DNA from: Pseudomonadota bacterium | GTDB taxonomy: Bacteria; Pseudomonadota; Gammaproteobacteria; Burkholderiales; Chitinibacteraceae | Assembly: GCA_026399755.1 (NCBI GenBank) | Contig: JAPLQI010000036.1 | Coordinates: 1 to 50,873 of the forward strand | Direction of reading: 5' to 3' | Length of the DNA: 50,873 nucleotides | Shown: positions 23,815-50,348 of the stretch, one piece after another | Numbering within the stretch: the first letter of the stretch is position 1 | Layout of the letters: each line of letters opens with the position of its first letter | The notes under the pieces: model-generated | What the model was told of the DNA's origin: nothing | Databases searched by the model: none | The model's input: only the letters and a program-made list of their open reading frames with translations | Position numbers and translations under genes: made by a program

Positions 23815-23820
23815 TTAAGA

Positions 23821-29843: not shown

Positions 29844-29853
29844 GATGGTCTCC

Positions 29854-31628: not shown

Positions 31629-31654
31629 AATTGTGTATGAACTGTAAAGCTTAT
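31629..31654 (-). promoter_or_regulatory. shared locus operator, copy 3 (LruC operon)
   Basis: On the minus strand it reads TTTACA-N5-TACACA followed by ATT. AATAAT lies 17 nt downstream. The inner edge is 51 nt from the LruC start. Confidence 0.6.
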
Positions 31655-31663
31655 GTTGAAAAA

Positions 31664-33028
31664 CTAATGCATAACATGGCGGAAAGATTTAGCTACTTTT
31701 TGACTGACATTCAGCGGATCGGAATGGGGCGGCTTGAGAGGTTTTCGCTGTAAATAAGCTTCAGCCCAGCCGAGGATAAAGAAAAACGCCGGCATCGGTT
31801 GTTCGCCCAAATACACTGTACCCAAAGAGACAAACATCATTGCGATAATGCCGGCAAAGGTAAAAGGCAGGGATGCCCGCCCTACAGGCTCGCTTAGTCC
31901 TCGGGTGCTCAGTCGTATCGTCATCCAGGCCATGATGCTGAGCAAAAAAATCAGTGCAATTACGCCATGCATCAGCGCTAATAACAGGTAGTAATTGTCG
32001 ATGGACTCCATGCCGCCAACTTTAGGCCAGGTATTGCGTCCCCAGCCTAAAACTGCGTGCTCCAGTGCAATGGCCTCGTATTTGTCCATCAGTTCTTTGC
32101 GATACATCGCGGACTCTTGTGATTGAGTCATGATCGCGCCCGGCTTGATAGTTAGATACTGGTCGAGTAGCGTGTACCCTAACAGGCCCCCGACTAAAAA
32201 CAGGGCCAGCACCCATTGCATGCGCTTTTTGCGATCTTGTGCGTGAGACACCCACATTAATACGCCACCGACTAAACCACCAAGCCAAGGCCCGCGAGCA
32301 ATGGTCATGACAATCCCCAGTATTAGTAGGCCATTAATCCATTGGGTTTTTGTACCGGGTAGATGAAAGGGTGGGATGTTGTCTTTCCAGTAGCCTCCCC
32401 ACTGAAGCCAACGAGCCATACGCCAAGCCATTGCCAGCATAATGCCGGCCAGAATGGCGTGAGAATAAGGGCCTGCAATGCGTGCAAAACCGTGTCGGAA
32501 GGTTGTGACCCAACCATCGCCTTGACCTGGGAAAAATGGGCCAAACATCAAATGCCATAAATTGATGCCAAAGCGAAATTGGTAAATTGAGATCGCTGAT
32601 ACGGCAACACAAGAAATGACAAAGATGCGGGCGGTGTCAATATCATGCTCTTGTGAACACAAACACCAGCGCGCGCAAAAATAAGGCGCAATGACTGAGG
32701 CCAGCATAGCAAACATCAGATTTTGTGCTTCGGCATAACCGGCGTTACTGAACTCCGAATAGGCAACGCAGCTGGCAAAGCCGATGACGAGTAAGTCGGT
32801 GATGGATAGGCGCCAGTCTTTACGCTGGGTAAATATCGCAGCTAAGAATAATGGCAAGATTGCCGCTTGATTAAAACTGGGATCTGGCAAGCCCGGCGTC
32901 ATTGCGTGATAGCAATCGGGTAGCAGTAGCAAAATGGGCAAATAGCCTCGAATCACGCCATCTGTCACGCCGCGCCGCAGGAGTAAATAGAGGGTAATCA
33001 GCGGGGCGATGTAGATGATAAATTGCAT
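31664..33028 (-). CDS. O-antigen ligase/polymerase-family membrane protein (Wzy-like)
   Basis: The 454-residue polytopic membrane protein has about ten hydrophobic segments and a large loop between 290 and 360 containing LGWGRNTWPKVGG, the Wzy_C/WaaL-type region. In this locus it is the best candidate for the polymerase joining repeat units in the periplasm. Start 33028 has GGAG upstream and lies 2 nt after the hydrolase stop; the longer frame to 33100 overlaps that gene. Confidence 0.82.
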   Translation of the reverse strand: MQFIIYIAPLITLYLLLRRGVTDGVIRGYLPILLLLPDCYHAMTPGLPDPSFNQAAILPLFLAAIFTQRKDWRLSITDLLVIGFASCVAYSEFSNAGYAEAQNLMFAMLASVIAPYFCARWCLCSQEHDIDTARIFVISCVAVSAISIYQFRFGINLWHLMFGPFFPGQGDGWVTTFRHGFARIAGPYSHAILAGIMLAMAWRMARWLQWGGYWKDNIPPFHLPGTKTQWINGLLILGIVMTIARGPWLGGLVGGVLMWVSHAQDRKKRMQWVLALFLVGGLLGYTLLDQYLTIKPGAIMTQSQESAMYRKELMDKYEAIALEHAVLGWGRNTWPKVGGMESIDNYYLLLALMHGVIALIFLLSIMAWMTIRLSTRGLSEPVGRASLPFTFAGIIAMMFVSLGTVYLGEQPMPAFFFILGWAEAYLQRKPLKPPHSDPLNVSQKVAKSFRHVMH

Positions 33029-33030
33029 CT

Positions 33031-35160: not shown

Positions 35161-35187
35161 GATGCCCCCGGATGTATTTACCTCATT

Positions 35188-36498
35188 TTAGTGATAGCGC
35201 TCTCGCAAATTGTGGCAAGAAGGTAAACCTTCATAGCCTTGCATTTGTGCGTACAACTGCTCGACGATATCTAGCTTGTGCTCCCAGTCAAACCCCATTG
35301 GGTGAGGTTGATGCAATATTTGAGCGGCCCTTGCACCCATTGCCGCCCAATGCGCTGGGCGGCAATGGCAATCGAGTAAGGTCGTTTTAAGTTGAGCAGT
35401 GAGTTCGGTGCCTGAGTGCGCATCAAGTAATATCCCCGTTTCTTTGCTTAGCAATTCAGCGGGTCCGCCAAAACGATAGGCAATGACCGGCCTTCCGCAA
35501 GCCATCGCTTCAAGAATTACCGCTCCTCCTGACTCCCTAATCGATGGCAGGCAAAACACATGACATTGCTGCATGAGTAAAGGCACGTCAGCTAAGGGGG
35601 CACGACCCGTAAAGTGGCAGTGCTGGCCAATACCTAGCTCGGCGGCTTCGGCTTCCCATACTGAGCGTTTAACGCCATCACCTACGAGGGTGAGATCGAT
35701 TGGATAGCCCGCTTTGATTAACTGTGCACAGGCTTGAAGGAGATAATTGACACCTTTGACGGGTAGCATTCGGCCCACAAACAAGACATTCAGTACGTCG
35801 CTACTGCTACGTTCGGGCACGGGATGGGCGGTGAACTTTAAGTGGTCAATGCCATTTTCCAGTAGTGGGCGTGTGCGTTGTTTGGGGGGGAGCGTAGCTC
35901 GTGTGGCTGCTGTTGCGGTTAGGGTGATTTGCTGGTGGCTGGATTTTTCTAACCTTGCTGAAAACCATTGCCCAAGCCGTCGGCCATGATTGAGCCACTG
36001 GGATTCCTGCTGTAATACCTCATCAAAACCGATTGGATTACCTAAGCCGCAATTGAGAGGCCCACGAATCAGCGGCAAGCCAAGCTGATGAAGTCGTGTC
36101 CCTGCGGCCGAGCTTACTGGGGTAGGGACGTGGACAGCCACCCAGCGAGCACCTTGTTTGCGTAGCAGGCGTGAGCGCCGCAAAGCTAGAAAATCAAACA
36201 AATAATAATCGACAGAACTGAGTAGAAAAATGGCATGCTCTTTGCCGGGAAACAGGTAGGAGGCGGTGCGATAGAGTGGGCCAGCCAGCCATTCGGTATT
36301 GATGTACTCAATCTGGCTGCCTTTGAATGGTGCACCAGCGGCTTCAATTGCAGTGCGATTTCGGCTATGGGTGATCAAGGTGACGGGGCGACGCTTGGCC
36401 ATGCGTTGATACCATTCCCAGCCAATTTGAGAGACGGAGCCCATATCGGGCCCGCATTGGTAGGCAACCAGTAAAATAGGGCTTTTGCTAGGGTTCAT
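35188..36498 (-). CDS. glycosyltransferase family 4
   Basis: A 436-residue GT-B enzyme: ILLVAYQCGPDMGSVSQIGWEW at the start, VLFVGRMLPVKGVNYLL, FCLPSIRESGGAVILEAMACGRPVIAYRFGGPAEL with the E-x7-E motif. I start at 36498 with AAGGAA about 8 nt upstream, 2 nt after the acetyltransferase stop. The frame extends to 36645 only as an antisense-like overlap of the upstream gene. Confidence 0.9.
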   Translation of the reverse strand: MNPSKSPILLVAYQCGPDMGSVSQIGWEWYQRMAKRRPVTLITHSRNRTAIEAAGAPFKGSQIEYINTEWLAGPLYRTASYLFPGKEHAIFLLSSVDYYLFDFLALRRSRLLRKQGARWVAVHVPTPVSSAAGTRLHQLGLPLIRGPLNCGLGNPIGFDEVLQQESQWLNHGRRLGQWFSARLEKSSHQQITLTATAATRATLPPKQRTRPLLENGIDHLKFTAHPVPERSSSDVLNVLFVGRMLPVKGVNYLLQACAQLIKAGYPIDLTLVGDGVKRSVWEAEAAELGIGQHCHFTGRAPLADVPLLMQQCHVFCLPSIRESGGAVILEAMACGRPVIAYRFGGPAELLSKETGILLDAHSGTELTAQLKTTLLDCHCRPAHWAAMGARAAQILHQPHPMGFDWEHKLDIVEQLYAQMQGYEGLPSCHNLRERYH

Positions 36499-36500
36499 TT

Positions 36501-37067
36501 TCATTTCCTTGACAGCGGCTTGGCGGGAATCCCGCCGAAAGTGGCGCCGCTTGGTACATCGCGGGTCACCACGGCATTGGCAGCAATGGTTGCGCCATCC
36601 CCGATGCAAACACCGGGTAAGATGATCACCCCTCTGCCGATCCAAACTTCTTTGCCAATCCTAATTGGCGCGCAGTTGTAACCTGCATCCCGCAGCGGGA
36701 TGGATGGATTCCGGCGATGATTTGCATCGCGCACACTGCTGTATTCCCCTAGCATCGAGCCTGAGCCAATGCTGATTTGGCAATGGGAAACTAAGTGCAC
36801 GCCACGGGAAATAACAACATCGTCGCCTAGGGTGATGCTCCCAGAACCTTGGGTTTCAAGGTAAAGTCCTGGGTAAATAAACGCCCCCAAGCCAAAATGG
36901 ATGGTTCGTGAGCCCTGTAGTTCAACGGCTCCTAAAATGACATTGCTCGGGTCCAGCGGAATACGACAAGCCAGGCACAACCATGCCATGCCTCGTTGAT
37001 ATGAAGCTAAGGCATCGAGCAGTTGGCCTAGCCACGGTGAGCAACATCTGTAGAGGAGCCGTTTCAT
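36501..37067 (-). CDS. hexapeptide-repeat sugar acetyltransferase
   Basis: A 188-residue left-handed beta-helix enzyme: [41 protein letters not shown] (catalytic His region) and the standard closing block [31 protein letters not shown]. It is the third acyltransferase of the locus. Its start overlaps the upstream GT2 gene by 4 nt. Confidence 0.87.
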
Positions 37068-38053
37068 TTTGGTGTTGCTTTGTAATTAGCAAAAGAGGCG
37101 CGTTTCTTTGTTGCTTGATCGCGCAAGCAACGCCAGATGCCCAGCGTGATTGGAATTTGAGCCAACCAGCTATGAATGCCATAGAGCAATAAGCTTGGCC
37201 AATGCGGGCTGCGCCAGCGAGCCCGCCAACTGCTGCGCAGCATCAAGAGTGTGAGTGTAAGAAATGCGGCTGCGCTGAGCAGCGGATACGTCACCAAGCC
37301 AAGTAGTATGAGCAGTAGCAAGGTGAGTAAAACGCTACTTTGTCGATAGTTGTGTCGCACTTCTTTGACCCAAAAGGTATGTGTCAGCGAGCTCACCGCC
37401 GCATAGGCGTAACCTGCTCGGCTGGTGCGTTGCCAATATTGCTTAAAGTGAGTAATGGCCAGGTCATGCTGAGTCATTGGGATATCCAAGTGCATAATTT
37501 TCCATCCCTGTTTGCGTAGCCAAAAACACATTTCAGGTTCTTCCCCGGCCAATAACTTTGGGTTAAAGCCGTTGACCTGGCGCAGCGCTTCACGCCGAAA
37601 TAAGGCATCTCCGCCGCAAAATGCGGTTTCGCCTGGCGGGTAGCGCCAATCCAGATCAAGCACTTGTACATAAACCGATTGATTTGGATAGCGCTCAACG
37701 CGGTGTCCCCAGATGCAGGCCAGTTTTGATTGAGCTTGCAAAGCGGCCAGAGCGTGCGATAAAAAATGCGGTGCTAGGGTGGTGTCGCCATCTAAAAACA
37801 TGATCCAATCCCCCTTAGCTTGTGCTAAGCCCGTATTGCGTGCCGCTGCTGCGCCTCTTTGTTTGGCTAAAAAGACGTGGTCGGCGAGCAACCTCGCCTT
37901 GGCAGGGCTATCGTCGCTTGAGTGAGAATCGATATATAGCAGTTCGATGTTGGAGTAAGCATTTTCTCGGACTGAGTTTAGGCAGCGTATTAAGCGCTCT
38001 CCTTCGTTATGGCCGATGACAATCAGTGTAATTAATGGATCGCTATTCATCAT
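37064..38053 (-). CDS. glycosyltransferase family 2 with C-terminal membrane helices
   Basis: A 329-residue GT-A enzyme: [53 protein letters not shown] (DxD), [20 protein letters not shown]. Two or three hydrophobic segments (about 240-275) anchor it in the inner membrane. It overlaps the upstream GT4 gene by 11 nt. Confidence 0.88.
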
Positions 38054-39083
38054 TTATCCCCTTAATGCCACACAAGCAGGCATAGCTGGCGATCTGTTGT
38101 GGTGCTGAGAAGCGTTGGATGAGCTGCTGCCGTGCATTGGCAACGATGGTATTAAGTTCACTGGCAGGTAATTGGTTAATCCAATGAATTTTCTGTGCTA
38201 AATCATGGCTATCACCTGCCTGATAATAAAACCCCGTTTCGCCATGTTTAACTAAGTCAGCTGCACCTCCGCGATTGGGCACCAGAACAGGAACCCCAGC
38301 ATCCATGGCTTCTAGAACCGCCAGCCCGAAAGGCTCATTAGCGCAGCTATGCACGTATAGATCACATTGGGTCAGTTCTTGATTGGGGTGCTCGACAAAG
38401 CCAAGCCATTTGATTTGCTTAAGGTGAGCGCTGTGTGCTTGTAATTCTTTGCTTTGCCAGCCCGTGCCGCAAATCCGCAGCGCGGGTAGTGAGGGGTCAT
38501 TACACCAAGCCCTGATGGCCACACTGACTTGCTTGATGGGGTCGATACGCGTGATCATGGCCACTTGCGTAATGCCGGGCTTTGTAAATACGTCCCGACG
38601 GTTTTGTTGGGTGGTGAGGAAATTTTCAATTACCGTGATGTGTTTGTCACTGCAGCCATGCGCTAATAAGCGTGTTCTGACAAACTCGGAGACTGCGATC
38701 AGCTCAATGCCTAAATATTGCAGCCAGTGTTTGCGGCCATAACTTAAATATTCATCCGTGCCCCCATGCACGATATGGATCTGGCGAGGCCATTTTCCAC
38801 GCAGTAGAGCTAGAACACTCACCATGAGCGCTTGGCTTACCCCAGTGCTGCAAACGCACAGCTCGGGGTGGGCAAGATAGCGCCACAACTGGCGGGCAAG
38901 CTCGAGCCAACTGTTAAAGCCATAAAATAAAACATCCTGCTCCTTGGCCAGTTGCTGTACTGGACCTTGGGGGGCAAACAGCACCGTGTTGGCTTTAAAT
39001 TTCAAGTGGGCCAGCGTGGCCAGCGCCATTCTTTCTGTTCCATAGCGCTGGCCACTGTGCAAAATATAGAGCAGGGTTTTCAT
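38043..39083 (-). CDS. glycosyltransferase family 4
   Basis: A 346-residue GT-B enzyme: LLYILHSGQRYGTERMALATL (N-terminal GT4 start), HIVHGGTDEY, IAVSEFVRTRLLAHG, ITRIDPIKQVSVAI and EPFGLAVLEAMDAGVPVLVPNRGGAADLV with the E-x7-E motif. It lies 27 nt after the WecG fusion gene. Confidence 0.9.
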   Translation of the reverse strand: MKTLLYILHSGQRYGTERMALATLAHLKFKANTVLFAPQGPVQQLAKEQDVLFYGFNSWLELARQLWRYLAHPELCVCSTGVSQALMVSVLALLRGKWPRQIHIVHGGTDEYLSYGRKHWLQYLGIELIAVSEFVRTRLLAHGCSDKHITVIENFLTTQQNRRDVFTKPGITQVAMITRIDPIKQVSVAIRAWCNDPSLPALRICGTGWQSKELQAHSAHLKQIKWLGFVEHPNQELTQCDLYVHSCANEPFGLAVLEAMDAGVPVLVPNRGGAADLVKHGETGFYYQAGDSHDLAQKIHWINQLPASELNTIVANARQQLIQRFSAPQQIASYACLCGIKGINDE

Positions 39084-39110
39084 TGGCGTGCCTCTTGCTG
39101 TCAGTTGTTA

Positions 39111-41537
39111 TTACAATGCATTGGGAGGCGAAATGATGTCCGATTTGTAAAATCTAGCCTGTGAGCCATGCTTTAATGATTGGGCTAGATGTTGTAATTT
39201 TTTCCAACTTAAATGCTGCGGTACTGCTGCGCCATATAGATCGGTTATGCAATCTTGTTCTTCGCGGCTTAGGCCTTGCGCGGGTAATGTTTGAGCTTGT
39301 AATTCAGAGAGCCTGATCGCGCCTAGCCGCAGGCTTTTTCTTTCGTAAGTGCTATTTTGCTTTTGCGATAAGACAGGTAAGCCAATCAGGTGGCACTCGC
39401 CGTGAAGCACTTTTTTTAATCGATTGGCTAGGTTTTGTCTGCGATAAGTATCGAGTTGCTTTTGATGCCAGTACAGCCAAACTAAAGTGATTAAGGCTTG
39501 CAAGCGCTCACCTAGGCTTGGCCTGCTTAGTCGCTCGTCCATTTCATCAATTAAGCATTCCTCTGCCTTGAAGTGCAAAATGGTTTTATCCCGCACTAAA
39601 TACAATTTTCGATTGCCGACCAAGCTGTGCCCGATACTCATTTCTTCTGCGATATAGCTAAAGGGTTTGAGTAAGCTATTGTGGATGCTTACTTGCCGAT
39701 CCAGTACGCAGCCTTCGCCAATCACAGTATTAGGGCCTATCTGGCTTCCTTGCCGAATTAAGCAGTTGCGGCCAATGAGCAAAGGGCCAATGAGTGTGAC
39801 GTTTTTTTCGCAAATCACCCCAGGGGCCAGCCAAACCTGATGTTTGACTTCCTGGTATTCTGGAATATAAGGCGGTGCTTTTTGTAAGAGTTCGGGCAGT
39901 GCTGCGTTAAGCTCTTGTGCGTTGCATAAGCTAATGCCATCAAAACGCTTGGTTTGTGCGGGTAATGGGAGTTTGTTTTGATCCGGCGCTAATTTTAGCT
40001 GTTCCGATTTGATATAAGCCCAGCCAGCCCAGATACCCTGAGCCAATTCCCATTGGCATGCTGCAGTACTTAATAGATTAGCGTTAGGCAGGCAGCCTGG
40101 GGCGACCAGCCAAACGTGCTCAGGCAAGGGCAAGGCGGCAAGGCGAAGGCGGGTTTGTCGCTGCTGTCCAGATAGATAATAGCGAATCTCAATTCCCCAG
40201 CGCTCACCCTTCCCTAATTGCGCCGCAATGGCAGAGTAACCCTGATCGGCAAAAACATGCACTAATTTTACCCCTTGCTCCACCAGTCGAATCATGCTCA
40301 GCTCAAGCAGGCTATGACCCACCAGTGGAGATAAGAGGGTGCCGATTGGATCATCCCCTTGCCAGAGCGTATAATCAGTCAGCAGCAGAGCCTGTGGACG
40401 CGGATCAACTTCATGGCGTGGTGAGTATGCGCTGGGCAATAGTTTGGGGGCTGCTTGGAGTTTTTGCCTGAATACACGGGCAAGAAAAGTGAAGTTGCCA
40501 ATTAAATATCGCTGCCACATTCTTCCTGGCTCTTGTAATAAGCGCCAGCACCATTCCAGGCCCAGTTCACGTAACCAAAGCGGTGCACGAGGAATACGGC
40601 CAGATATAAAATCAAACAAGCCCCCAACGCCTATCGCTAAAGGTACGGCCGTGGCCTGCTGATTGCAGGCAATCCAGTTGTCTTGCAGGGGGGCACCCAT
40701 GGCGACTACTAAAACATCCGCTTTGCTTTGTTTGATTTCTTTGATGAGGGCCGGGGTATCTTTACTGGGGCTATAGCCATGGTATGTGCCCGCGATATGT
40801 AAGCCAGGATATTTTTTTAACAGGCGCCGTGCTACCTCTTCTGCTACCCCGTGGCGGCCACCAAGTAAATACAAGCGAGCGCCGGCCTGTTGCCATTGCT
40901 TACATAAAATCGGGAATAAATCTGTGCCGTTAGTGTTTTCTTGCAAAGGTGTTTTCAATATGCGGCTGGCAAGTAAGACGCCGCTGCCATCGGGTAATAA
41001 CAGATCTGCCGAATTGAGCACGCCGCGATATAAGGGGTCTTTGCTGGCCAGATTTGCGCAATGCGGATTGACAAAGGCTATGCGGCGTTGGTGAGCTTGC
41101 TCGCGCCATATTTTGAGCTGTGACTCAATCTGTGCATGTTGCAAATTATCCAGCCATAAACCAAGTAAAGGCCAACGCTCTTCGGTTGGGCTGACGGTAT
41201 GCCCAATAAGCATGCTCCAGCTATATCGCAGTAGTAGGGCTATATCAAAGCGCCAGCTGCGAGAATGTTGATCATGGCTATCCCATTCTGCTTCATCGTT
41301 GAGGGCCAGGGCCATGCGTTGATGTAGGCGGTAACTTGAGAGTAGCCCAGGTGTGTTGCCCGCTGTGGAGCCTATCCACTGTAAGCGGCTTTGAGCGATA
41401 TCTTGCAGTTGCTGTAGCAATACTGTGCCGAACCCGAGCTGTGCTGCAGGCCAGAGCAATAGTTTCAGTATCTTAGCGATGACTCTGCCCAGTGTTAGGG
41501 CGTATCGCTGATAGCTGGACTGTGAAAATGAAGCCAT
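39111..41537 (-). CDS. WecG/TagA/CpsF glycosyltransferase fused to nucleotidyltransferase-like and beta-helix modules
   Basis: The 808-residue fusion has a helical N-terminal region (1-140) and then a WecG/TagA domain (about 150-355) with LPDGSGVLLA (Asp183), GAPLQDNW, GVGGLFDFISG and RELGLEWCWRLLQEPGRMWQRYL. Residues 382-560 follow the fold pattern of sugar nucleotidyltransferases but lack the GxGxR/K signature (ALLLTDYTLWQGDD instead). A left-handed beta-helix follows (about 585-650). The tail (700-808) contains VLHGECHLIGLP, reminiscent of the GEMSLVGPRP region of phosphoglycosyltransferases. The WecG part should add the second sugar after the priming enzyme encoded upstream. Start 41537 follows AAGGAT and overlaps that gene by a few... 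0 nt (13-nt gap). Confidence 0.83.
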   Translation of the reverse strand: MASFSQSSYQRYALTLGRVIAKILKLLLWPAAQLGFGTVLLQQLQDIAQSRLQWIGSTAGNTPGLLSSYRLHQRMALALNDEAEWDSHDQHSRSWRFDIALLLRYSWSMLIGHTVSPTEERWPLLGLWLDNLQHAQIESQLKIWREQAHQRRIAFVNPHCANLASKDPLYRGVLNSADLLLPDGSGVLLASRILKTPLQENTNGTDLFPILCKQWQQAGARLYLLGGRHGVAEEVARRLLKKYPGLHIAGTYHGYSPSKDTPALIKEIKQSKADVLVVAMGAPLQDNWIACNQQATAVPLAIGVGGLFDFISGRIPRAPLWLRELGLEWCWRLLQEPGRMWQRYLIGNFTFLARVFRQKLQAAPKLLPSAYSPRHEVDPRPQALLLTDYTLWQGDDPIGTLLSPLVGHSLLELSMIRLVEQGVKLVHVFADQGYSAIAAQLGKGERWGIEIRYYLSGQQRQTRLRLAALPLPEHVWLVAPGCLPNANLLSTAACQWELAQGIWAGWAYIKSEQLKLAPDQNKLPLPAQTKRFDGISLCNAQELNAALPELLQKAPPYIPEYQEVKHQVWLAPGVICEKNVTLIGPLLIGRNCLIRQGSQIGPNTVIGEGCVLDRQVSIHNSLLKPFSYIAEEMSIGHSLVGNRKLYLVRDKTILHFKAEECLIDEMDERLSRPSLGERLQALITLVWLYWHQKQLDTYRRQNLANRLKKVLHGECHLIGLPVLSQKQNSTYERKSLRLGAIRLSELQAQTLPAQGLSREEQDCITDLYGAAVPQHLSWKKLQHLAQSLKHGSQARFYKSDIISPPNAL

Positions 41538-41550
41538 GATCTGAATCCTT

Positions 41551-42264
41551 TTAATATGCACCACGCCCAAGGAAAACGGCTGGCAAAGTCAGCAATAAAA
41601 TGCGCAGATCCAGCGCGATACTGCGCTCGCGAATATATTGAAGATCCATCGCTAATTGGCCATCAAATGCAATGTTAGAGCGGCCACTGACTTGCCAAAT
41701 GCAGGTCAGTCCAGGGGTGATTTCAAGGCGTTGTCTGGCATGTAAGCCATATTGGCTGACCTCACGGGGGAGTGGTGGTCTAGGGCCAACTAGAGTCATC
41801 TGGCCAATCAGTACACACCAAAGCTGGGGAATTTCATCTAAGCTAAAACGACGCATCCAACGGCCGATATACGTCACTCGAGGGTCATTTTTGAGTTTAA
41901 AAGTGCGTTGATCTGCATGTTGGTTTTCTAAAGCGTGTTGGTATTGATCTGCATTGATGCGCATGCTGCGGAATTTAGGAAATGCAAATAGTTGCCCACG
42001 ATAGCCCACGCGATCTTGCCAATACAAAATCGGGCCGCCATCGGTGAACTTGATTAATAGAGCTAATAAGGCCCAGAGTGGCCAGCCCAGCCCTAGTGCT
42101 ACGAGTGCCGAAGTAATATCCCAAATCCGCCGAACAGAGCTGGTGAGCTTTAGTTTGATGAATAGAGTTAGGCGAAGTGCTGTCATGGCTTTACGTCTGC
42201 GTGCCGGGTGACTAAATCTTTTTTCAAGTTTACGTAAGTTGGGTTCAATAACTTTTGAAAGCAT
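41551..42264 (-). CDS. priming phosphoglycosyltransferase (bacterial sugar transferase, C-terminal-type)
   Basis: The 237-residue monotopic enzyme transfers a sugar phosphate to undecaprenyl phosphate and so starts repeat-unit assembly. A hydrophobic segment (about 50-72) is followed by GGPILYWQDRVGYRGQLF, FPKFRSM, RRFSLDEIPQLWCVLIGQMTLVGPRPPLP and ITPGLTCIWQVSGRSN, the PglC/WbaP catalytic core. The N-terminal multi-span region of WbaP is absent. It heads the largest minus-strand operon and is preceded by the shared upstream element. Confidence 0.93.
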   Translation of the reverse strand: MLSKVIEPNLRKLEKRFSHPARRRKAMTALRLTLFIKLKLTSSVRRIWDITSALVALGLGWPLWALLALLIKFTDGGPILYWQDRVGYRGQLFAFPKFRSMRINADQYQHALENQHADQRTFKLKNDPRVTYIGRWMRRFSLDEIPQLWCVLIGQMTLVGPRPPLPREVSQYGLHARQRLEITPGLTCIWQVSGRSNIAFDGQLAMDLQYIRERSIALDLRILLLTLPAVFLGRGAY

Positions 42265-42349: not shown

Positions 42350-42358
42350 GTGCTGCTT

Positions 42359-43810
42359 ATGCCTTTTAACGATTTGCCGGCTGGAGTGTTAACGGTCTTG
42401 GTGGTCGATGATATTGCGGCTACACGGCGCAGATTGTGTAATCTGGTTCAAAAATTGGGCTATTGCGTGATTTCTGCAAAGGAGGGTAAATCGGCTTTAG
42501 CGTTATTTGAGCAAGCGCAGCCAGACATCGTCCTACTGGATTTACTTATGCCTGGCCTAGATGGTTGTGAAGTTGCCCTACGCATCAAGGCGCTAGCTGG
42601 GAAAAAGTGGGTGCCCGTTATTGTCTTATCAGGCTTGGAGGGAGAGCACCATTTGCTTGCTGCCCTTGAGGCGGGTGCAGATGACTTCTTACGTAAACCA
42701 ACTGAACCGGCAATCTTAGCCAGTAAGCTTAAAAATCTAGCAAGGGTTTTAGTGTTGCAGCAGCAACATGCTGCGCTGCTGAGTAAATCTTTAGCTGTGA
42801 GTGAAAATAGTTTTGACGCTATTTTGGTTCTCGGCAGTGATGAAACGATCCAGGGGCTCAATTTAGCGGCAGAGCGGTTATTGCAGGCGGATCGGGGCGT
42901 TATGCTGGGGCGGGCAGTAAGGGGAATCCTACCCAATTTGGCCTTTGGTCAAGCAAAGCATGCGCCGTCGCAAGGCCGGCTTCAGCAGCTTGAGGTGCTT
43001 CCTTTGTCCGGGGAATCTATTCCTGTGGAGTTGGGCTTAACGTGTTTTCATCAGGCTGGCGAGCAATTTTGGTTGCTGATTTTGCGCGATGTGAGTGAGC
43101 GGCAGCGGGTAGACCAACTTAAACAGCAATTTATTGCCACCCTAAGTCATGAGCTGCGTACCCCATTAACCTCGATCATTGGTTCATTAAAGATGCTGCA
43201 AAGTCCACAGTTTGCATTTGTCGATGAGCGAGCGTCACCTTTGCTGGAGATGGCCGATCGGAACGCTTCGCGCTTATTGCATATGGTGAATGAGTTATTA
43301 GATTTAAATAAAGCGGCTGCAGGTGCTTTGCAGCTGGAGTTACGCCCTTACTCAGTGGCTAATTTGCTGGGAGAGGTTGTGCAAGTCAATCTGGGGTATG
43401 CGGCCAAATATGGGGTTTCCTTGCAATTATTTTGTGAGTTGGATGAGTCGTTAGTGATTTGTACGGACAAAATGCGTTTTGGGCAAATTATGTCAAATTT
43501 GATTTCCAATGCTTGTAAGTATTCGCCCGCGCATTCTACTGTGGATGTGGATGCAAGTATCACCTCATCTGCGTTGCGAATCATCGTGCGGGATCGTGGG
43601 GCAGGCATTGCGGAAGATTTCGTGCCTCACTTATTTGAGCCTTTTACCCAAGCCGATGCGAGTGATTCAAGGCTGTATGGCGGTACAGGTTTAGGGTTGG
43701 CGATCTCTCGACAGCTGTGTTCGGCTTTAGGTGGCAGCATTTCTTACCAAGCTGCTCAAGATAGTGGTAGTGAATTTACGGTTACATTACCTTGGGGGGG
43801 GAGGGGATGA
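42359..43810 (+). CDS. hybrid histidine kinase, REC-PAS-HisKA-HATPase
   Basis: The 483-residue cytoplasmic kinase has an N-terminal receiver (phospho-Asp61 in VLLDLLMPG), a PAS-like region (about 145-245), HisKA with His264 in TLSHELRTPL and an HATPase domain with NLISNACKY, DRGAGIAEDF and GGTGLGLAIS. It has no membrane segment, so the signal is intracellular or arrives by the receiver. ATG 42359 is chosen; GTG 42350 is an alternative, and neither has a clear ribosome site. It overlaps the next gene by 4 nt and is the only plus-strand unit in the locus. Confidence 0.9.
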   Translation: MPFNDLPAGVLTVLVVDDIAATRRRLCNLVQKLGYCVISAKEGKSALALFEQAQPDIVLLDLLMPGLDGCEVALRIKALAGKKWVPVIVLSGLEGEHHLLAALEAGADDFLRKPTEPAILASKLKNLARVLVLQQQHAALLSKSLAVSENSFDAILVLGSDETIQGLNLAAERLLQADRGVMLGRAVRGILPNLAFGQAKHAPSQGRLQQLEVLPLSGESIPVELGLTCFHQAGEQFWLLILRDVSERQRVDQLKQQFIATLSHELRTPLTSIIGSLKMLQSPQFAFVDERASPLLEMADRNASRLLHMVNELLDLNKAAAGALQLELRPYSVANLLGEVVQVNLGYAAKYGVSLQLFCELDESLVICTDKMRFGQIMSNLISNACKYSPAHSTVDVDASITSSALRIIVRDRGAGIAEDFVPHLFEPFTQADASDSRLYGGTGLGLAISRQLCSALGGSISYQAAQDSGSEFTVTLPWGGRG

Positions 43811-44202
43811 GTGAATTACGTCAGATTACTGTGATTGAAGACGATGATGATATTCGGCATTTGATTCATTTATGCTTGAGTACTTTGGGTGTTTTTAATG
43901 TTCAGCCGTACCCACTCGCAAGCCTTGCAATTAAAGAGATGCATGAAAATTCTTTACCGCAGATGATTTTGTTGGATGTGATGATGCCTGAAATGAGTGG
44001 AATAGAGTTCATTCCATTGCTGCGAAAACTCAAAGGCGGCGATACAGTATGTGTCGTAATGTTGACTGCAAAAGCATCTCAGGCAGATTTGTCTAGCCTA
44101 CTGGATGCGGGGGCAGATTTTGTGGCTCAGAAGCCTTTTGATCCCCTTTTGTTGCCGCAACTCTTGCTGGAGTATTGGGAGATTTATCATGCCCGACTTT
44201 AA
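43807..44202 (+). CDS. single-domain response regulator (REC only)
   Basis: A 131-residue receiver with acidic pocket EDDDD, phospho-Asp57 in LLDVMMPEMSG, MLTAKA and Lys in QKPFD. No output domain follows. GGGAGGGG precedes the ATG, which overlaps the kinase stop (ATGA). It probably shuttles phosphate between the kinase and the Hpt protein encoded next. Confidence 0.9.
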   Translation: MSELRQITVIEDDDDIRHLIHLCLSTLGVFNVQPYPLASLAIKEMHENSLPQMILLDVMMPEMSGIEFIPLLRKLKGGDTVCVVMLTAKASQADLSSLLDAGADFVAQKPFDPLLLPQLLLEYWEIYHARL

Positions 44203-44506
44203 CCACGCATTGTTTGCAGTGGGGATGATTGAGTTAAAGGCTAAATTTGTTACTGGTTTGCCAGAGCGTATGAAAATTATTGAACAATCACGGCAGATGC
44301 CCGCTGCGATATGGCAGCCTGATGATGAGATACTGAATGAGTTACATCGTTTGGCAGGCGCATCAGGCTCCTTGGGGTTTGAACAATTAGCCACTGCGGC
44401 ACGGCAGCTAGAGCAACGGCTCCAGTCTTTGGTGGGGGGATCTCCATTTCCGGTGCAAGACTACGAAATGCTGGAGCAAGCAGCTGCAGTAGTGATGGCG
44501 GATTAA
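44189..44506 (+). CDS. Hpt-domain phosphotransfer protein
   Basis: A 105-residue helical protein with LHRLAGASGSLGF, phospho-His53, the Hpt signature. GGAG lies 7 nt before ATG 44189 and the gene overlaps the receiver gene by 14 nt. Its natural acceptor would be a further response regulator, possibly the OmpR-type product of the convergent neighbour. The two stops overlap by 4 nt. Confidence 0.85.
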   Translation: MPDFNHALFAVGMIELKAKFVTGLPERMKIIEQSRQMPAAIWQPDDEILNELHRLAGASGSLGFEQLATAARQLEQRLQSLVGGSPFPVQDYEMLEQAAAVVMAD

Positions 44507-45195
44507 GGGGTGACTAGCATCATGTTTTCTAAGCGATAACCATAGCCGTAAACTGAGGTGAGCTGCCATTGCAGGTGCCCATTGAGCGATAATTTTTTGC
44601 GCAAACGGCTAATGTGCGTGTCAACGGTCCGAGTATCAATTTCAACATTTAACCCCCATATTTTTTCGAGTAAATTCATTCGGGAAAATAACTTTCCGGG
44701 GTGCTGAAATAAATACAAAGCGAGATCAAATTCTTTTTGTGTGAGTTCCACTTCGCTGCCCGATTTTCGAATGAGCCGCTGGCTGGTGTCTATTTCATAC
44801 GAGCCAAGGTGTAATACCAGAGGAGCGATTGATTTAAAACGGCGGGCTAAGACTTCAATACGCGCTAGTATTTCCAAGGGTTTAATTGGTTTGACTAAAT
44901 AGTCATCCGCCCCTGCTTTAAGTGCTGCGACTACATTCTTCTCATCATCGATTGAGGTTGCGACCATGATCGGTATTTGCCAGCCGATGTTTTCACGCAC
45001 CCATTTGATGATCATTCCTCCTGAGTAGTCAGGCAGATTCCAATCCAATAGCAATAAATCAAAATGGGTTTCTTTGAGCATCGCAAAGAAAGCGACGCTG
45101 GTATGAAATACTTTGCTGGAATGGCCTCCGCTATTGAGCGTCAAGGCGAGCATCTCTGCTTGTATGGGATCATCTTCGACAATGGCAATGAGCAT
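44503..45195 (-). CDS. OmpR/PhoB-family response regulator
   Basis: A 230-residue two-domain regulator: receiver with Asp51 in LLLLDWNLPD and Lys in LVKP, then a winged-helix domain (about 128-225) with LTQKEFDLALYLFQHPGK, IDTRTVDTHISRLRKKL and SVYGYGYRL. OmpR-family proteins bind direct repeats with about 11-bp periodicity, which matches the shared upstream elements of this locus, so it is the prime candidate to bind them. It is the last gene of the Wzx-Wza-H-NOX-phosphatase operon, 49 nt after the phosphatase gene. Confidence 0.92.
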   Translation of the reverse strand: MLIAIVEDDPIQAEMLALTLNSGGHSSKVFHTSVAFFAMLKETHFDLLLLDWNLPDYSGGMIIKWVRENIGWQIPIMVATSIDDEKNVVAALKAGADDYLVKPIKPLEILARIEVLARRFKSIAPLVLHLGSYEIDTSQRLIRKSGSEVELTQKEFDLALYLFQHPGKLFSRMNLLEKIWGLNVEIDTRTVDTHISRLRKKLSLNGHLQWQLTSVYGYGYRLENMMLVTP

Positions 45196-45244: not shown

Positions 45245-47251
45245 CTAGATTTTCCCGCGAATCTGTAATCGAACTCGGTTTACGTCGCTGGCCGGGGTGC
45301 TGTATTGCACGTCATCAACACAATGTCGGATGATATAGAGGCCAAAGCCACCTTCCTGCTCTCCGCTAAAATCAGGTGCAGGCACTTGGGTTGGATCAAA
45401 AGTGTGCCCTACATAATAGAAATCAATCCAAAATACTTCATTTTGCTCGCGGATATGCACCACAAATGGTGTATCGGCCAAGGTGATTGCAACGTGTCGA
45501 ATGATATTGGTCGCTACTTCAACGGCCGCCAGCTCGATCGCTCCCATTTGGATTTCATCCAATGAAATTTGAGCCCGTAGCCAGTGCCGTAAAGGGGTTA
45601 ACTCGCTCATTTTGCGCATAAACTCTCTACTACAGGGGGATCTATCTTTATGTCGGAAAATACCTATCGCGGTAAAGTCATCGGAGCGCCGGTTTGATGA
45701 TTCATGCAAGTCAACCAGTTGTCGTAATTTTTGTAAAATAATGGCTGGCGGGATAGCCACGCGGATGAGTTGGGTTACATGTTCGATAAGGCTGGCAATT
45801 CCCAGTAATTCAAAACGCTCATTTCGTGCTTCGCTCACACCATCTGAAAACAATAATAAAAAGTCTCCCGGCATAAAAGGGGCATCCATAGATTCGTATT
45901 GCTCGCGGTGATCGACTCCAATGGGTAAAAAATTGCTAGAAAGTGAAATGATTTCACCTGCTGCGGTAAAGATTAAGCCCTCGGGGTGCCCAGCGTTAAT
46001 ATAGTGGATGCGATTGTGAGTTAAATCGATGCGAGAAAAAATGAGCGTCACAAAGGATTCTAGCCGCAGTAATTCGGGAGTCACTTTGGTATGAACACGA
46101 TTAATAATAAGGTTGATGTCGGGAGGCTCCCCATGACCACTGCCCAGTAGCTCTGCCATGGTCCTGTTATATTGGCTTTTTAAAGCGGCACCAATCATTG
46201 CAGCGGCTACGCCTTTGCCCATCACGTCGCCAGTGAATACATCGAGGCAATCTTCGCCTAGTGTAAAGAAGTCGAAAAAATCGCCGTCAATCCCTTGCGA
46301 TGGCTGGGTGAAGGCCGAAATCTCAAGCCCACGTAGACTTCGTGGGGTACCAAATAACAAGGACTGTTGAATCTCATTGCCGAGCTGTAATTCGCGCTCG
46401 CGGGATGCTGCCAGTGCCATTTGCTGTGCTTTGCGTTCGCTAATATCTCTAACAATAGCGGTAAAGTGTATTTCATCACCTACTTGCAGGCTGCTTAATG
46501 AAATTTCAGCGGGAAACTCCTCGTTGTTGCGACGGCGCGCTATGACCTCGCGGCGGCGATTAAATTGAGGCGTAAATGCACGCTGGGACGCAGAAGCTAA
46601 GGACTCGTTGTGACTCGATGTGGATGGAGCTGCAGTTAAAATAGCAACATCTTTACCTAATACTTCATATTCATCCCAGCCAAACATGGCTTGAGCTGCT
46701 GGATTAAAGCTTTCAATATATCCTTTGGAATTACTGGTGATAATGGCATCGGGCGCAGTTTTTAAAATATTTTGCAAAAGAGCGCGCTGTTTTTGAAATT
46801 GAGTGGCGATTTCCCGGCTTTCTTGTAATGAAGTTTTTAAGTCTTGGATCAGTTGTAATAAATCAGTACTGGCGTCATGAACGGCGAAATCGTTGAGTGT
46901 TAAACCGTAAGTGTGTAGTTGCTCTGGATCATTGAGCCATGGAGAGCCCAAAAAAAGCAGTGAGTCGCTATTTTCGTCAAATAGGACTTGGCCCCGTAGT
47001 AATAGATTATTGCTGAGAACTTTAAATATATACAAAGTACGAGCTTGCATCTCTGGGGTGCTGCTCCAAACATTTTCAATGGGCGTGCTTGGCCGTAATT
47101 GGTGGATTAATGCTTTTAATTGCTGCCCAAGCAAGAGATCAGGAACAACACGCGGGAGAGCTTGGCCAAATTCAATGAATTTGAGTGTTCTATCAAGGCG
47201 GAAATAAAAGGGGAATGCACTGCTAGGTAGTTGTAGATGCACTGCTTGCAT
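45245..47251 (-). CDS. HNOBA-PAS-SpoIIE phosphatase-RsbW-like ATPase fusion
   Basis: The 668-residue cytoplasmic protein has four modules. Residues 10-125 match the heme-NO-binding-associated domain (FPFYFRLDRTLKFIEFGQAL, LRGQVLF, LLFLGSPWLNDPEQL, GLTLNDFAVHD). PAS spans about 155-270. A PP2C/SpoIIE domain (about 295-520) has all metal motifs: GDFFDFF, GDVMGKG, LFSDGVSEARN and SDDFTAIG. The last part (about 535-668) is an RsbW-like HATPase with VEVATNIIRH and GGFGLYIIRH, but the DxGxGFD box reads YVGHTFD. It should switch phosphorylation of a STAS antagonist under H-NOX control. ATG 47251 lies 2 nt after the H-NOX stop; GTG 47263 is an alternative. Confidence 0.9.
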   Translation of the reverse strand: MQAVHLQLPSSAFPFYFRLDRTLKFIEFGQALPRVVPDLLLGQQLKALIHQLRPSTPIENVWSSTPEMQARTLYIFKVLSNNLLLRGQVLFDENSDSLLFLGSPWLNDPEQLHTYGLTLNDFAVHDASTDLLQLIQDLKTSLQESREIATQFQKQRALLQNILKTAPDAIITSNSKGYIESFNPAAQAMFGWDEYEVLGKDVAILTAAPSTSSHNESLASASQRAFTPQFNRRREVIARRRNNEEFPAEISLSSLQVGDEIHFTAIVRDISERKAQQMALAASRERELQLGNEIQQSLLFGTPRSLRGLEISAFTQPSQGIDGDFFDFFTLGEDCLDVFTGDVMGKGVAAAMIGAALKSQYNRTMAELLGSGHGEPPDINLIINRVHTKVTPELLRLESFVTLIFSRIDLTHNRIHYINAGHPEGLIFTAAGEIISLSSNFLPIGVDHREQYESMDAPFMPGDFLLLFSDGVSEARNERFELLGIASLIEHVTQLIRVAIPPAIILQKLRQLVDLHESSNRRSDDFTAIGIFRHKDRSPCSREFMRKMSELTPLRHWLRAQISLDEIQMGAIELAAVEVATNIIRHVAITLADTPFVVHIREQNEVFWIDFYYVGHTFDPTQVPAPDFSGEQEGGFGLYIIRHCVDDVQYSTPASDVNRVRLQIRGKI

Positions 47252-47253
47252 AC

Positions 47254-47799
47254 TTATTCCCACACCACTAAAAATTCATCGAAGTCATTTGCTGCCGCGC
47301 GAGTTTTAGTTTGCTCTACAGTCACTGTGGTTTCAAATAGCTCGCCTATGCCGAAGAGTAAGCCGACGACAAAGGGGGCTAATCCTGCACGGTGAGAAAA
47401 ATATTTCACCTTGATGCTATGCGCTCCAACGGGCTGGCATTGAAATTCAGGTGGCTGTAAATTCGGGTAGATTAAGAAAATCTTGGCATGAAAATTTGGC
47501 AGGTTAATTAAAAAATCTTGTAAGTTTTCTCCTCCTGACTTAAGCAAATGGCCATAGCTACGCCTTCCTGTTTCGAGTACCCAGTAGCGTCCAAATTTTT
47601 GTAATAACTGCTCTGCAGGAAGTCCCGTCAGGGTCGATGTGGCACCTACTATTGAATAGGTTGTGGAATCGGGGTATGGCTCGTTAGACAAAAATACTTC
47701 TTCCATCATGCCCGCTTTAAGCAGGATTTTTTGCCACGTCTCGCTACCGTACTCAGCGCACACCATTTCTTGTAGTGCTTTATTGACAATGCCATACAT
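47254..47799 (-). CDS. H-NOX (heme nitric oxide/oxygen-binding) sensor
   Basis: A 181-residue stand-alone heme sensor. MYGIVNKALQEMV is the usual start. His104 in LPNFHAKI is the proximal heme ligand, Pro117-Pro118 in LQPPEF matches the conserved proline at the heme, and Tyr133-x-Ser135-x-Arg137 (YFSHR) is the propionate-binding signature. Known bacterial H-NOX proteins sense NO and regulate a neighbouring kinase or cyclic-di-GMP enzyme. Here the next gene encodes a phosphatase with the matching associated domain. AGGGAG precedes the ATG, 10 nt after the export lipoprotein gene. Confidence 0.95.
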   Translation of the reverse strand: MYGIVNKALQEMVCAEYGSETWQKILLKAGMMEEVFLSNEPYPDSTTYSIVGATSTLTGLPAEQLLQKFGRYWVLETGRRSYGHLLKSGGENLQDFLINLPNFHAKIFLIYPNLQPPEFQCQPVGAHSIKVKYFSHRAGLAPFVVGLLFGIGELFETTVTVEQTKTRAAANDFDEFLVVWE

Positions 47800-47809: not shown

Positions 47810-48796
47810 CTAAAAATTACTTAAACCTAAGGTCAGTATTGACAATCCAGGAATAAGTTGCCGAACTACATAGCCTGTTTCTGCAACGCCACTTTTAGGA
47901 ACGTAAATGACGTCCCCTTCTTCAAGAGAGAAATTGACCATTTTTTCTCGGTTGAGCAATGTCTTAAGTGGAGTTGTTTCATTGGCTTGTTTGCTGGGCC
48001 GGTAAATGGCAATTTGTTCGGGAGCGGCATCATCGTTTGGGCCGCCTGCTTGGGAAAGCGCATCCATTAAAGACATGTCAGGCGTTAATCGATAGGCTCC
48101 TGGCTTGTGAACTGCGCCTAAAACATACACCAAGGTATCGAAGGAATCCGGGATATACACTAAATCATTGGGTTTGAGGCGAATGTTATAGGCGAGCTCG
48201 CCACGATTAAGTAATTTTTTAAGGTCAACCCAGATGATGCGATCTCGTCCACGAAACACGGCGACCCGAGTCAACGTGGCTTGTTTGTCGATGACAGGCA
48301 GGGAGCCTGCGCGGGCTAATGCTTCTAATAGATAGGGTTGGCGATCAAATTGTTGAACACCAGGGTTTTGTACCCGTCCTAAAATAGTGACGCGATTGCC
48401 CGTATATTGCTCAACACCGACAAAGACCGCAGGTTTACGAATATATGCAGAAAGCGACTCACTAATTTGTTTGGCCGCGGTTTCTCTGGTTTCTCCATTG
48501 AGTTTCATTGTGCCAGCCAATGCAATGGTGAGGCGGCCATCCGGCCCGAGCAGTTGCTTGCCCGATAGTTCTGGACGGTTCCAAACGGTGATTTGCAAGG
48601 AATCTCCTTCGGCAAGGCGATATATATCGTCGCCCCCTCGCTCTAATTCCGCTAATGCTTCGGGGCTGGCGTAATTGATTTGTTCTGATTTTTGTGCGGG
48701 TTGAAATGTTTGTGTGTTGCTTGGAATATTGCTGGGCATTTGGCTACAGGCCATCAAAGCGGCACACATGAGGATATTCGCAATAGGCTTAAGCAT
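47810..48796 (-). CDS. polysaccharide export outer-membrane lipoprotein (Wza/OPX family)
   Basis: A 328-residue lipoprotein with lipobox LMAC (Cys17), a poly_export domain (YRLAEGDSLQITVWNRPELSG at about 55) and SLBB-type repeats (VTILGRVQNPGVQ, VYVLGAVHKPGAYRL). It forms the outer-membrane exit for the polysaccharide together with the co-polymerase at 19982. Start 48796 has GAGG 7 nt upstream and overlaps the flippase gene by 8 nt. Confidence 0.92.
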   Translation of the reverse strand: MLKPIANILMCAALMACSQMPSNIPSNTQTFQPAQKSEQINYASPEALAELERGGDDIYRLAEGDSLQITVWNRPELSGKQLLGPDGRLTIALAGTMKLNGETRETAAKQISESLSAYIRKPAVFVGVEQYTGNRVTILGRVQNPGVQQFDRQPYLLEALARAGSLPVIDKQATLTRVAVFRGRDRIIWVDLKKLLNRGELAYNIRLKPNDLVYIPDSFDTLVYVLGAVHKPGAYRLTPDMSLMDALSQAGGPNDDAAPEQIAIYRPSKQANETTPLKTLLNREKMVNFSLEEGDVIYVPKSGVAETGYVVRQLIPGLSILTLGLSNF

Positions 48797-50300
48797 GATG
48801 AACCTCATGTTTCAACAATTTTGTCCATTGATAGATAAGCCACGATTTTTCTGCAGAAGTTAAAGCAAATTTCCAAATAACCACTGATAAACAGAGTGTA
48901 AACAAGCTGCTTGTCTGAAGTAGTTCAACTAAGGCTAAGCTGCGGCTGGTGAGTTGCCATGGCCAAAGCCAGGTAAAGCTATAAGCAAGGCAATAGCCAA
49001 GGAGCAGTGGCAATAGGGTTTGCCGGAAAACGAGGGTAGGAGACATGGAAAGCCGCTGGCTTGCGAGGAATAAATATGCGAGTGCGGCGAGCCCATTGCC
49101 AATTGCAAAGTAAGTAATAAATTGCAGCAGGCTACTGCTGCAGAAATAAGTAATGGCGCAGGAAAAAAAACGCATCAGATGATAGATAAACTCCAGACGT
49201 AACTCAGCTTGCCCGCGTAAAGCACTGGATGCGCATCCGGTTAATGTGTGTAATTGCCAGGCTGGCGTCAGCCAAAGGAGTGTTTGCAAGATCATCGCAG
49301 ATTCTGGTCTGAATCCAAGCCAGGCTAAATGAAGGGCTGGAGCACAGGCCACCATGACGGGCATAACCCACAACAAAGAAAGCATTGATAGTCGTAATAC
49401 TTTGGGATAAAACTCGGCTAATTGCTGGGGATTCATACAGGCCGCACGCGGCAAAACAATCGCACTGATTCCTGATGAAATTGAAATCGCAGTTGCGGGT
49501 AATTTACTGCCTAAGTCGACGATGGCAGCCGATGCGCTGCCAAAGCTTACGCTCGTTAAAATACGATCGGCAGAATGTAAAATGATTGCACAAGCATCAC
49601 TGATTTGGCTTTTGATGCCCAAATGGAGAAAAGGCTGCAAGTAGGTTTTGCGGACGAAGCTGGGTTTTAGCTGGAGTGCTGGCCATATTTGATGTACGCG
49701 CCACCATGCACAAGCGATCGAAAAAACATAGCGCAGTACAAAGCCACCTAACAGCGCAGTGATGCCCCAATTGAAGTAGAGTAAGCTCACCATAATGAGC
49801 CATTCAAGTATAAAGCTTGCTACCCAAATCCGTTGTTGTTCATGGACACGATTTAAACCGTGTAACACATAACCCCAAGCCCCCAGTGTTAAATCAGCCA
49901 AAAAGACCAAGGTGGTGGTGAGTAAGAGTAAGGTCGCTAGGGATTGGAGAGGCGGGCTGATGGCAAAGACGCGTAAAAACCAGGGCATAAACAGCACTAA
50001 ACCCAAGCAAAATCCGCCTCCGATGAGCAAGGCGAGGGCCACGCCCGTGCTAAGCATGCCGCTGGCATGGTGTGGGTCGTCGCTTTCAAAAGCTTGGGCA
50101 ATTTCGCGCACATAGACTGTAGCAATACCAGAAACAGAAAGCCCTAAATACCCCACTAATACAAAAGCAATTGACCAAAGGCCATACTCCTGAAGCCCCA
50201 CTTGGCTCAGGACCATGGGTGGTATGGCTAGTCTTGTCAATAAATAGAGTATCTTGGCCAAGATCCCCTCTAGTGCGGCACGCTGAAATCCGTTTGGCAT
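48789..50300 (-). CDS. Wzx-type polysaccharide flippase
   Basis: The 503-residue integral membrane protein has about 12-14 hydrophobic segments and a MOP/polysaccharide_synt start (GFQRAALEGILAKILYLLTRLAIPPMVL). It moves lipid-linked repeat units across the inner membrane. I start at 50300 because GAGGTG lies 6 nt before it; an in-frame ATG at 50327 would add 9 residues. It heads the operon that also encodes the export lipoprotein, H-NOX, the phosphatase and the OmpR-type regulator. Confidence 0.88.
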   Translation of the reverse strand: MPNGFQRAALEGILAKILYLLTRLAIPPMVLSQVGLQEYGLWSIAFVLVGYLGLSVSGIATVYVREIAQAFESDDPHHASGMLSTGVALALLIGGGFCLGLVLFMPWFLRVFAISPPLQSLATLLLLTTTLVFLADLTLGAWGYVLHGLNRVHEQQRIWVASFILEWLIMVSLLYFNWGITALLGGFVLRYVFSIACAWWRVHQIWPALQLKPSFVRKTYLQPFLHLGIKSQISDACAIILHSADRILTSVSFGSASAAIVDLGSKLPATAISISSGISAIVLPRAACMNPQQLAEFYPKVLRLSMLSLLWVMPVMVACAPALHLAWLGFRPESAMILQTLLWLTPAWQLHTLTGCASSALRGQAELRLEFIYHLMRFFSCAITYFCSSSLLQFITYFAIGNGLAALAYLFLASQRLSMSPTLVFRQTLLPLLLGYCLAYSFTWLWPWQLTSRSLALVELLQTSSLFTLCLSVVIWKFALTSAEKSWLIYQWTKLLKHEVHHA

Positions 50301-50348
50301 AATGCACCTCGATGAGTCATAACTCATTTAAATACAAGAGTGCAATGC

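Follow-up and report, generated by a model that had tools for sequence, protein, structure and literature searches.

The window analysed here, a 50,873-nt stretch of contig JAPLQI010000036.1 (GCA_026399755.1, Chitinibacteraceae; positions are numbered along its forward strand), contains an exopolysaccharide gene cluster in which a gene for an H-NOX (haem nitric oxide-binding) sensor is followed by a gene for a protein joining HNOBA, PAS, SpoIIE phosphatase and HATPase_c_2 domains, hereafter the fusion. A separate gene in the same cluster encodes a single-domain STAS protein (Table 1). The five-gene order Wzx–Wza–H-NOX–fusion–response regulator was retained in all eight fusion loci that we compared. 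The Wzx-like flippase candidate was assigned with the help of this conserved position, as its MatE score of 17.5 bits lies under the Pfam cut-off of 24.9.

Table 1. Genes and domains of the H-NOX–phosphatase locus and the surrounding polysaccharide cluster
Feature	Position	Strand	Basis
H-NOX (haem NO-binding) protein, 181 aa	47254..47799	-	Pfam HNOB; Alr2278 match; invariant residues
Fusion: HNOBA–PAS–SpoIIE phosphatase–HATPase_c_2	45245..47263, likely start ATG 47251	-	Pfam, PDB profile, Foldseek, orthologues
HNOBA region of fusion, about residues 5-155, PAS-like part plus helix	46799..47251	-	Pfam, AlphaFold model, PDB profile
SpoIIE/PPM phosphatase domain, about residues 338-536, acidic motifs complete	45656..46252	-	Pfam, alignment
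RsbW-like HATPase domain; N-box Glu582/Asn586 and G2 box retained, G1-box Asp replaced by Tyr617	45248..45655	-	
Single-domain STAS protein (anti-sigma-antagonist type), candidate phospho-acceptor Ser56	23357..23695	-	Pfam, TIGR00377, orthologues
OmpR/PhoB-type response regulator, directly 3′ of fusion in 8/8 loci	44503..45195	-	
Wza-like polysaccharide export protein, directly 5′ of H-NOX in 8/8 loci	47810..48808	-	
Wzx/MATE-like flippase candidate, first in conserved five-gene row	48789..50327	-	Weak MatE, position
Hybrid histidine kinase, receiver and Hpt genes of cluster	42350..44506	+	Pfam, locus comparison
Exopolysaccharide genes: sugar transferase, WecG, glycosyltransferases, Wzy, PilZ, nucleotidyltransferase, others	18637..42264	-	

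All four domains of the fusion scored above their Pfam cut-offs (HNOBA 72 bits against a cut-off of 23.4, PAS_9 51, SpoIIE 109 and HATPase_c_2 47). Moreover, the acidic motifs near D326/D328, D346, D474 and D528/D529, which supply the metal ligands in SpoIIE phosphatases, were invariant in all eight fusions, in agreement with an earlier note on this DNA that had described HNOBA, PAS and a metal-complete SpoIIE phosphatase in one protein. A profile built from the eight orthologues and compared with the PDB matched, through its HNOBA part (residues 5-120), the histidine-kinase chains 2p04 (E 2.5e-20) and 2p08, which we take to be the Nostoc HNOBA structures; sGC beta-1 was matched over residues 10-150 and the PAS domain of FixL over 145-285, and the profile also matched RssB- and SpoIIE-like phosphatases. 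The reading frame opens at GTG 47263. Met5 (ATG 47251), invariant in all eight orthologues, is likely to be the real start, and would place the fusion 2 nt past the H-NOX stop codon, the spacing given in the earlier note.

The AlphaFold model of the fusion (mean predicted local distance difference test 74.9, with residues 127-169 mostly below 50; predicted template modelling score 0.55) has a secondary structure that fits two PAS-like parts, together with long helices at about residues 131-167 and 275-303. Its top Foldseek match was 3ke6, the RsbU-RsbW domains of Rv1364c (E 4.9e-19), at a root-mean-square deviation of 15.1, indicating that domain placement differs between the model and Rv1364c. 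The best PDB relatives of the fusion PAS are FixL chains, and a second haem sensor of the FixL type was considered and rejected: the position of the FixL proximal His is not conserved, reads Q in the window, and has a His nearby only in the fusion of genome G019.

HNOBA was also searched for in 369 class and 398 phylum genomes; these are samples, and other SpoIIE fusions may exist. Beyond the eight fusion genomes, an HNOBA region was identified by an in-house profile or Pfam in 22 others, counting G010 and four from the Acidobacteria sample. Their outputs were histidine kinases or histidine-kinase-like proteins in 10 (that of G944 looks degenerate) and GGDEF-type proteins in 12, most of the latter called from a motif scan of 3-kb loci; SpoIIE occurred in none. 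Twelve further loci, which matched only Pfam HNOBA positions 149-216 (six above the cut-off) and had no HNOBA by profile, were left out. Most of the HNOBA loci read have an H-NOX alongside. Two reviews likewise name histidine kinases, diguanylate cyclases or phosphodiesterases as the main H-NOX outputs, and list HK/RR (histidine kinase/response regulator), GGDEF/EAL, FIST and Nudix proteins among the neighbours (PMC8738867, PMC8846402), in line with the earlier description of H-NOX partners as mainly histidine kinases and diguanylate cyclases.

Literature searches, with most subscription journals outside their reach, found no described H-NOX–SpoIIE system of this build, consistent with the earlier statement that none was known. 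The co-mentions that seemed nearest concerned an H-NOX beside a cyclase, with SpoIIE only in a reference title (PMC6473078), separate topics (PMC5847659), reference lists (PMC4976288), and H-NOX and SypE/SypA in separate sections (PMC3843225). The system recombines known modules, and the direct HNOBA–phosphatase fusion is what looks new.

The STAS protein scored 71 bits against Pfam STAS and exceeded the cut-off of NCBIfam TIGR00377, and its motif D55-S56-S57-G was conserved in all eight orthologues; the lone STAS antagonist gene that had been noted in the same locus was therefore upheld. It shares a 4-nt overlap with the next gene. Among 43 genomes of the family, nine carry HNOBA and eight, the window included, encode the full-length fusion, the other seven at 51-81% identity; in the ninth, G010, an HNOBA histidine kinase adjoins the H-NOX. 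STAS orthologues of 65-84% identity were present in the same seven genomes, whereas the best matches in the remaining 35 did not exceed 28%, so that fusion and STAS orthologue occur in the same eight of the 43. In G012, G021, G023 and G024 the genes form a co-directional row, STAS–nucleotidyltransferase–19982-22120 homologue–...–Wzx–Wza–H-NOX–fusion–regulator, in which STAS precedes H-NOX by some 7 kb.

The cluster as a whole (18637-50327) is spread over four genera and two lineages in these 8/43 genomes, in rearranged order; three of the contigs matched by the fusion belong to Deefgea or Chitinilyticum. The fusion is absent from the eight other species of the window's own genus. Such patchiness makes the cluster look horizontally mobile or often lost. 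There was no sign of phage or plasmid carriage of the module: no phage matched the fusion at E 1e-20, no viral-contig relative was confirmed, and the one matching plasmid record (E 1e-40) covers residues 267-666 only.

Relatives outside the family strengthen the connection between phosphatase and STAS protein. The product of 19982-22120, used as a marker of the cluster, also matched, at 35-36%, G1305 and G1424, which belong to another family of the same taxonomic order. In their polysaccharide cluster a STAS gene, whose product is 42% identical to that of the window, ends 15-16 nt before the gene for an 834-aa SpoIIE–HATPase protein that is 36-37% identical to the fusion (L213 3087-5967; L215 3831-6710). 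The G1305 protein reads as REC–PAS–PAS–SpoIIE–HATPase (REC, receiver domain), in which Pfam reports one PAS and the first was assigned by position and reading. Adjacency of STAS to this REC-type relative indicates that phosphatase and STAS belong together whereas the input differs, being a receiver in one case and HNOBA in the other.

A third arrangement was found at L006 and L007, metagenome-assembled genomes of Acidobacteria type (L007 is titled Acidobacteria), where an H-NOX is followed by a PAS–SpoIIE–HATPase protein without HNOBA and then by STAS; the L006 H-NOX is truncated where the contig begins, and the L007 STAS, incomplete at the contig end, was read by eye. At L008-L013 STAS lies directly upstream of the fusion relative, with frame gaps from a 238-nt overlap to 385 nt, and H-NOX was not found in these six genomes. 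Counting the truncated L007 STAS, 10 of the 11 relatives from outside the family have a STAS gene next to the SpoIIE–HATPase gene. When the phosphatase–HATPase regions of 19 proteins were compared in a tree (the G023 row starts earlier, at residue 166), the eight fusions grouped together (92/81) and L006/L007 fell with the Armatimonadota and Spirochaete proteins (98/98); several branches are long and the deep joins are unsure.

With the profile of the window family, the L007 H-NOX scored 45.6 bits, versus 164-231 for five HNOBA-neighbour H-NOX proteins of the same phylum sample, and is of a different type. In that phylum, 28 of 396 genomes carry an H-NOX, and among the H-NOX loci surveyed (up to 1.5 kb on either side; one G488 H-NOX had no locus) only that of G412, the genome of L007, has SpoIIE, so such couplings are rare there. 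On these comparisons, separate origin of H-NOX–SpoIIE coupling on two occasions appears likelier than a single origin.

Together, these results indicate that the module is real and conserved and that it probably constitutes a working route from nitric oxide (NO) through the phosphatase to a polysaccharide STAS switch. We put at about 0.62 the probability that it is an NO-responsive serine-phosphatase switch of the exopolysaccharide cluster, in which the SpoIIE phosphatase, fed by the H-NOX/HNOBA pair, likely has the cluster STAS protein as its substrate. NO-loaded H-NOX would change its contact with HNOBA; the helices flanking PAS (about residues 131-167 and 275-303) would relay this change to a phosphatase dimer and so alter dephosphorylation of STAS Ser56, while the RsbW-like domain would most likely dock the STAS protein. 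The helical linkers of the model fit the mechanism proposed generally for PPM phosphatases, in which the signal reaches the dimer through a coiled-coil linker (PMC12143880). Unphosphorylated STAS would then permit polysaccharide production post-transcriptionally, as SypA does, and by analogy with Vibrio fischeri we lean slightly towards NO lowering polysaccharide output. The earlier note had NO acting on serine phosphorylation of a STAS protein; the phosphatase–STAS coupling finds support in comparison (the eight loci, G1305/G1424 and L006/L007), whereas the kinase half had simply been assumed active.

The closest functional parallel is Vibrio fischeri, where in the published model HnoX inhibits HahK, which via SypF sets SypG and SypE (PMC12369376), and where SypA promotes biofilm formation at a level below transcription when its Ser56 is unphosphorylated (PMC10120452). 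An NO sensor acting on a SpoIIE/RsbW-type protein and thereby on STAS phosphorylation, within a polysaccharide locus, is common to both (PMC12369376, PMC10120452 and PMC3843225). Here too the partner is a single-domain STAS protein encoded in the polysaccharide locus, with a DSSG serine that carries the same number as SypA Ser56. The systems differ in that V. fischeri passes NO through a histidine kinase relay onto the SypE receiver, whereas the fusion has no REC and carries a docking domain on the phosphatase itself, so that its wiring from NO sensor to phosphatase looks direct. The domain order also departs from that of SypE, given as kinase–REC–phosphatase in PMC10120452, against HNOBA–PAS–SpoIIE–HATPase here. 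Of the SypE/SypA-like logic with NO input that the earlier note had proposed, the STAS and phosphatase likeness remains; the NO input is not new, as the HnoX–HahK–SypF–SypE/SypG relay (PMC12369376) already supplies it in indirect form.

Several observations weigh against the NO-responsive phosphatase switch. In the window, G005, G009 and G019, the STAS gene stands at the opposite end of the cluster, 19-22 kb away from the fusion. Furthermore, of the family genomes, the cluster marker matched only the same eight (399 genomes searched), and co-occurrence of fusion and STAS within the family therefore reflects one inherited cluster; we rejected it as independent evidence, and the co-occurrence survey recommended in the earlier note, although it returned both genes in the same genomes, amounts to linkage. 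With 11 STAS matches in the genome, the substrate of the fusion could also be a different STAS protein. Four distant marker matches (21-24%) were obtained, in G1296, G1331, G1444 and G1390; in the first three, of which 15-20 kb were read, the profiles detected neither STAS nor SpoIIE, and the Vitreoscilla filiformis plasmid relative had no STAS by profile in the 31 kb covered. Finally, the G1-box Asp was found in none of 19 HATPase sequences (the eight fusions and 11 relatives), a substitution that speaks against a full kinase/phosphatase switch.

This last point bears on the alternative that survives best, a SypE-like bifunctional protein whose active HATPase kinase and SpoIIE phosphatase are held in a balance set by NO, which we nevertheless regard as unlikely. 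A single-sequence phmmer search of the HATPase domain against the PDB gave nothing convincing (best E 0.12), whereas a nine-sequence profile identified RsbW as the best solved match (E 1.4e-13), consistent with the HATPase_c_2 score. The N-box Glu and Asn were retained in all 19 sequences, and the G2 glycines were invariant in the nine aligned, which would suit a kinase. The same profile, in contrast, aligned Tyr617 of the fusion with the G1-box Asp (D-x-G) of RsbW (6m36) and SpoIIAB. Tyr occupies this position in 15 sequences (the eight fusions, both G1305/G1424-family proteins and five of Armatimonadota type), His in L006 and L007, Cys in Vitreoscilla and Phe in the Spirochaete; that Tyr is kept in 15 of 19 without drift suggests a working site. 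The genome's own RsbT-like (contig C26) and HsbR-like (contig C8) kinases retain the Asp. Loss of this residue in 19 of 19 sequences across phyla points to a trait of a subfamily and not to local decay, and on the aligned sequences there is indeed a subfamily of RsbW-like domains across phyla that lacks the G1-box Asp and retains the N and G2 boxes. Because the Asp is replaced in all fusions and relatives, kinase activity of the fusion is doubtful, although its ATP site might be remodelled and yet active; the HATPase domain most likely keeps the STAS-docking fold. The RsbW-like ATPase of the earlier note thus stands as to fold, N box and G2 box, with the reservation of Tyr617.

Less probable still is a role of the fusion in a sigma/anti-sigma pathway or some other general STAS pathway, its location in a polysaccharide cluster being incidental. 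The final targets of classical STAS partner switches are sigma factors, and the further STAS genes of the genome would provide for such a pathway. Nevertheless, the module belongs to related polysaccharide clusters in two families; it adjoins STAS in one family, and in some loci of the other the two share a single row of genes. A Pfam scan of 29 window proteins, almost all encoded within 18.6-50.3 kb, recognised no sigma factor, in an analysis that made no genome-wide search for a target.

The input could also be O2, redox state or another ligand instead of NO, which we consider improbable. The H-NOX scored 163 bits against Pfam HNOB (cut-off 25.5) and carries His104 and Y133-F-S135-H-R137, in which H104, Y133, S135 and R137 were invariant across the eight orthologues, confirming the intact sensor with a YxSxR motif that had been noted. 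Among solved chains its closest relative is the Alr2278 H-NOX, matched over the full length (E 1.2e-51), followed by sGC beta-1. Phe143, present in 8/8 sequences, aligns with the Met that follows the conserved GLAP in Alr2278, at the position where O2-binding H-NOX proteins carry Tyr. Haem-free redox sensing is reported for V. cholerae H-NOX (PMC8738867); no three-Cys motif was seen by eye in the eight H-NOX sequences. That H-NOX and fusion are mere neighbours is most improbable, as nothing was found in its favour, the two genes are adjacent in 8/8 loci, separated or overlapping by no more than about 10 nt, and the fusion contains HNOBA, the domain that stands beside H-NOX in soluble guanylate cyclase (sGC) and in most HNOBA loci read.

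The NO-responsive phosphatase switch can be set beside other known systems. H-NOX/HNOBA histidine kinases and GGDEF proteins use the same input pair, usually from adjacent genes, whereas the output of the fusion is a serine phosphatase. sGC shares the H-NOX and HNOBA (PAS-like plus coil) input, and differs in its cyclase output and in having all domains in one chain. Rv1364c (3ke6) has, like the fusion, a PAS domain in front of a phosphatase followed by an RsbW-like domain; its STAS-type domain is fused instead of separately encoded, and the accessible text names no H-NOX or HNOBA (PMC12143880). HsbR of Pseudomonas aeruginosa has the domains receiver–phosphatase–kinase. The HsbR/HsbA pair shares a STAS partner and has a link to biofilm, with a receiver in place of HNOBA as input.

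If the proposed route is correct, direct control of serine dephosphorylation by NO would add a new H-NOX output. Two proteins and a substrate would make a small system for how an H-NOX drives a coiled PPM phosphatase, bearing on the proposal that phosphatases, histidine kinases and cyclases draw on interchangeable sensor domains (PMC12143880). It would also offer a way into how a SypA-like STAS protein acts on polysaccharide synthesis. More tentatively, and with considerable doubt, serine dephosphorylation of STAS might constitute a third class of H-NOX output that arose at least twice, once as the Chitinibacteraceae HNOBA fusion and once as the Acidobacteria-type H-NOX beside an HNOBA-less PAS–SpoIIE–HATPase protein, with the RsbW ATP site remodelled for docking or sensing in place of phosphorylation.

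Elsewhere in the genome, a second H-NOX gene (contig C125 17257-17730; L035 9725-11609) precedes a histidine-kinase-like gene and raises the possibility of two coexisting NO pathways. Contig C8 encodes a REC–SpoIIE–HATPase-type protein beside a STAS gene, distant from the fusion. At contig C26 32847-34629 (L120), STAS, RsbT-like and SpoIIE-type genes stand in a row, possibly a stressosome-like cluster; one of its STAS proteins has a long N-terminal part that appears globin-like by eye. In the window, NCBIfam at E 0.001 returned no family for the H-NOX, a 709-aa protein or the Wzy-like protein. The DUF4114 plus DUF4842 product of 29854-31581 lies within the polysaccharide cluster and was not found at the same place in G009. 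The 712-aa marker product of 19982-22120 has no Pfam match but, with weak matches to EpsF and EpsG, looks like a Wzc-type chain-length/tyrosine kinase protein in fused form, and the 819-aa product of 39111-41570 combines a WecG/TagA glycosyltransferase with a hexapeptide-type C-terminal part.

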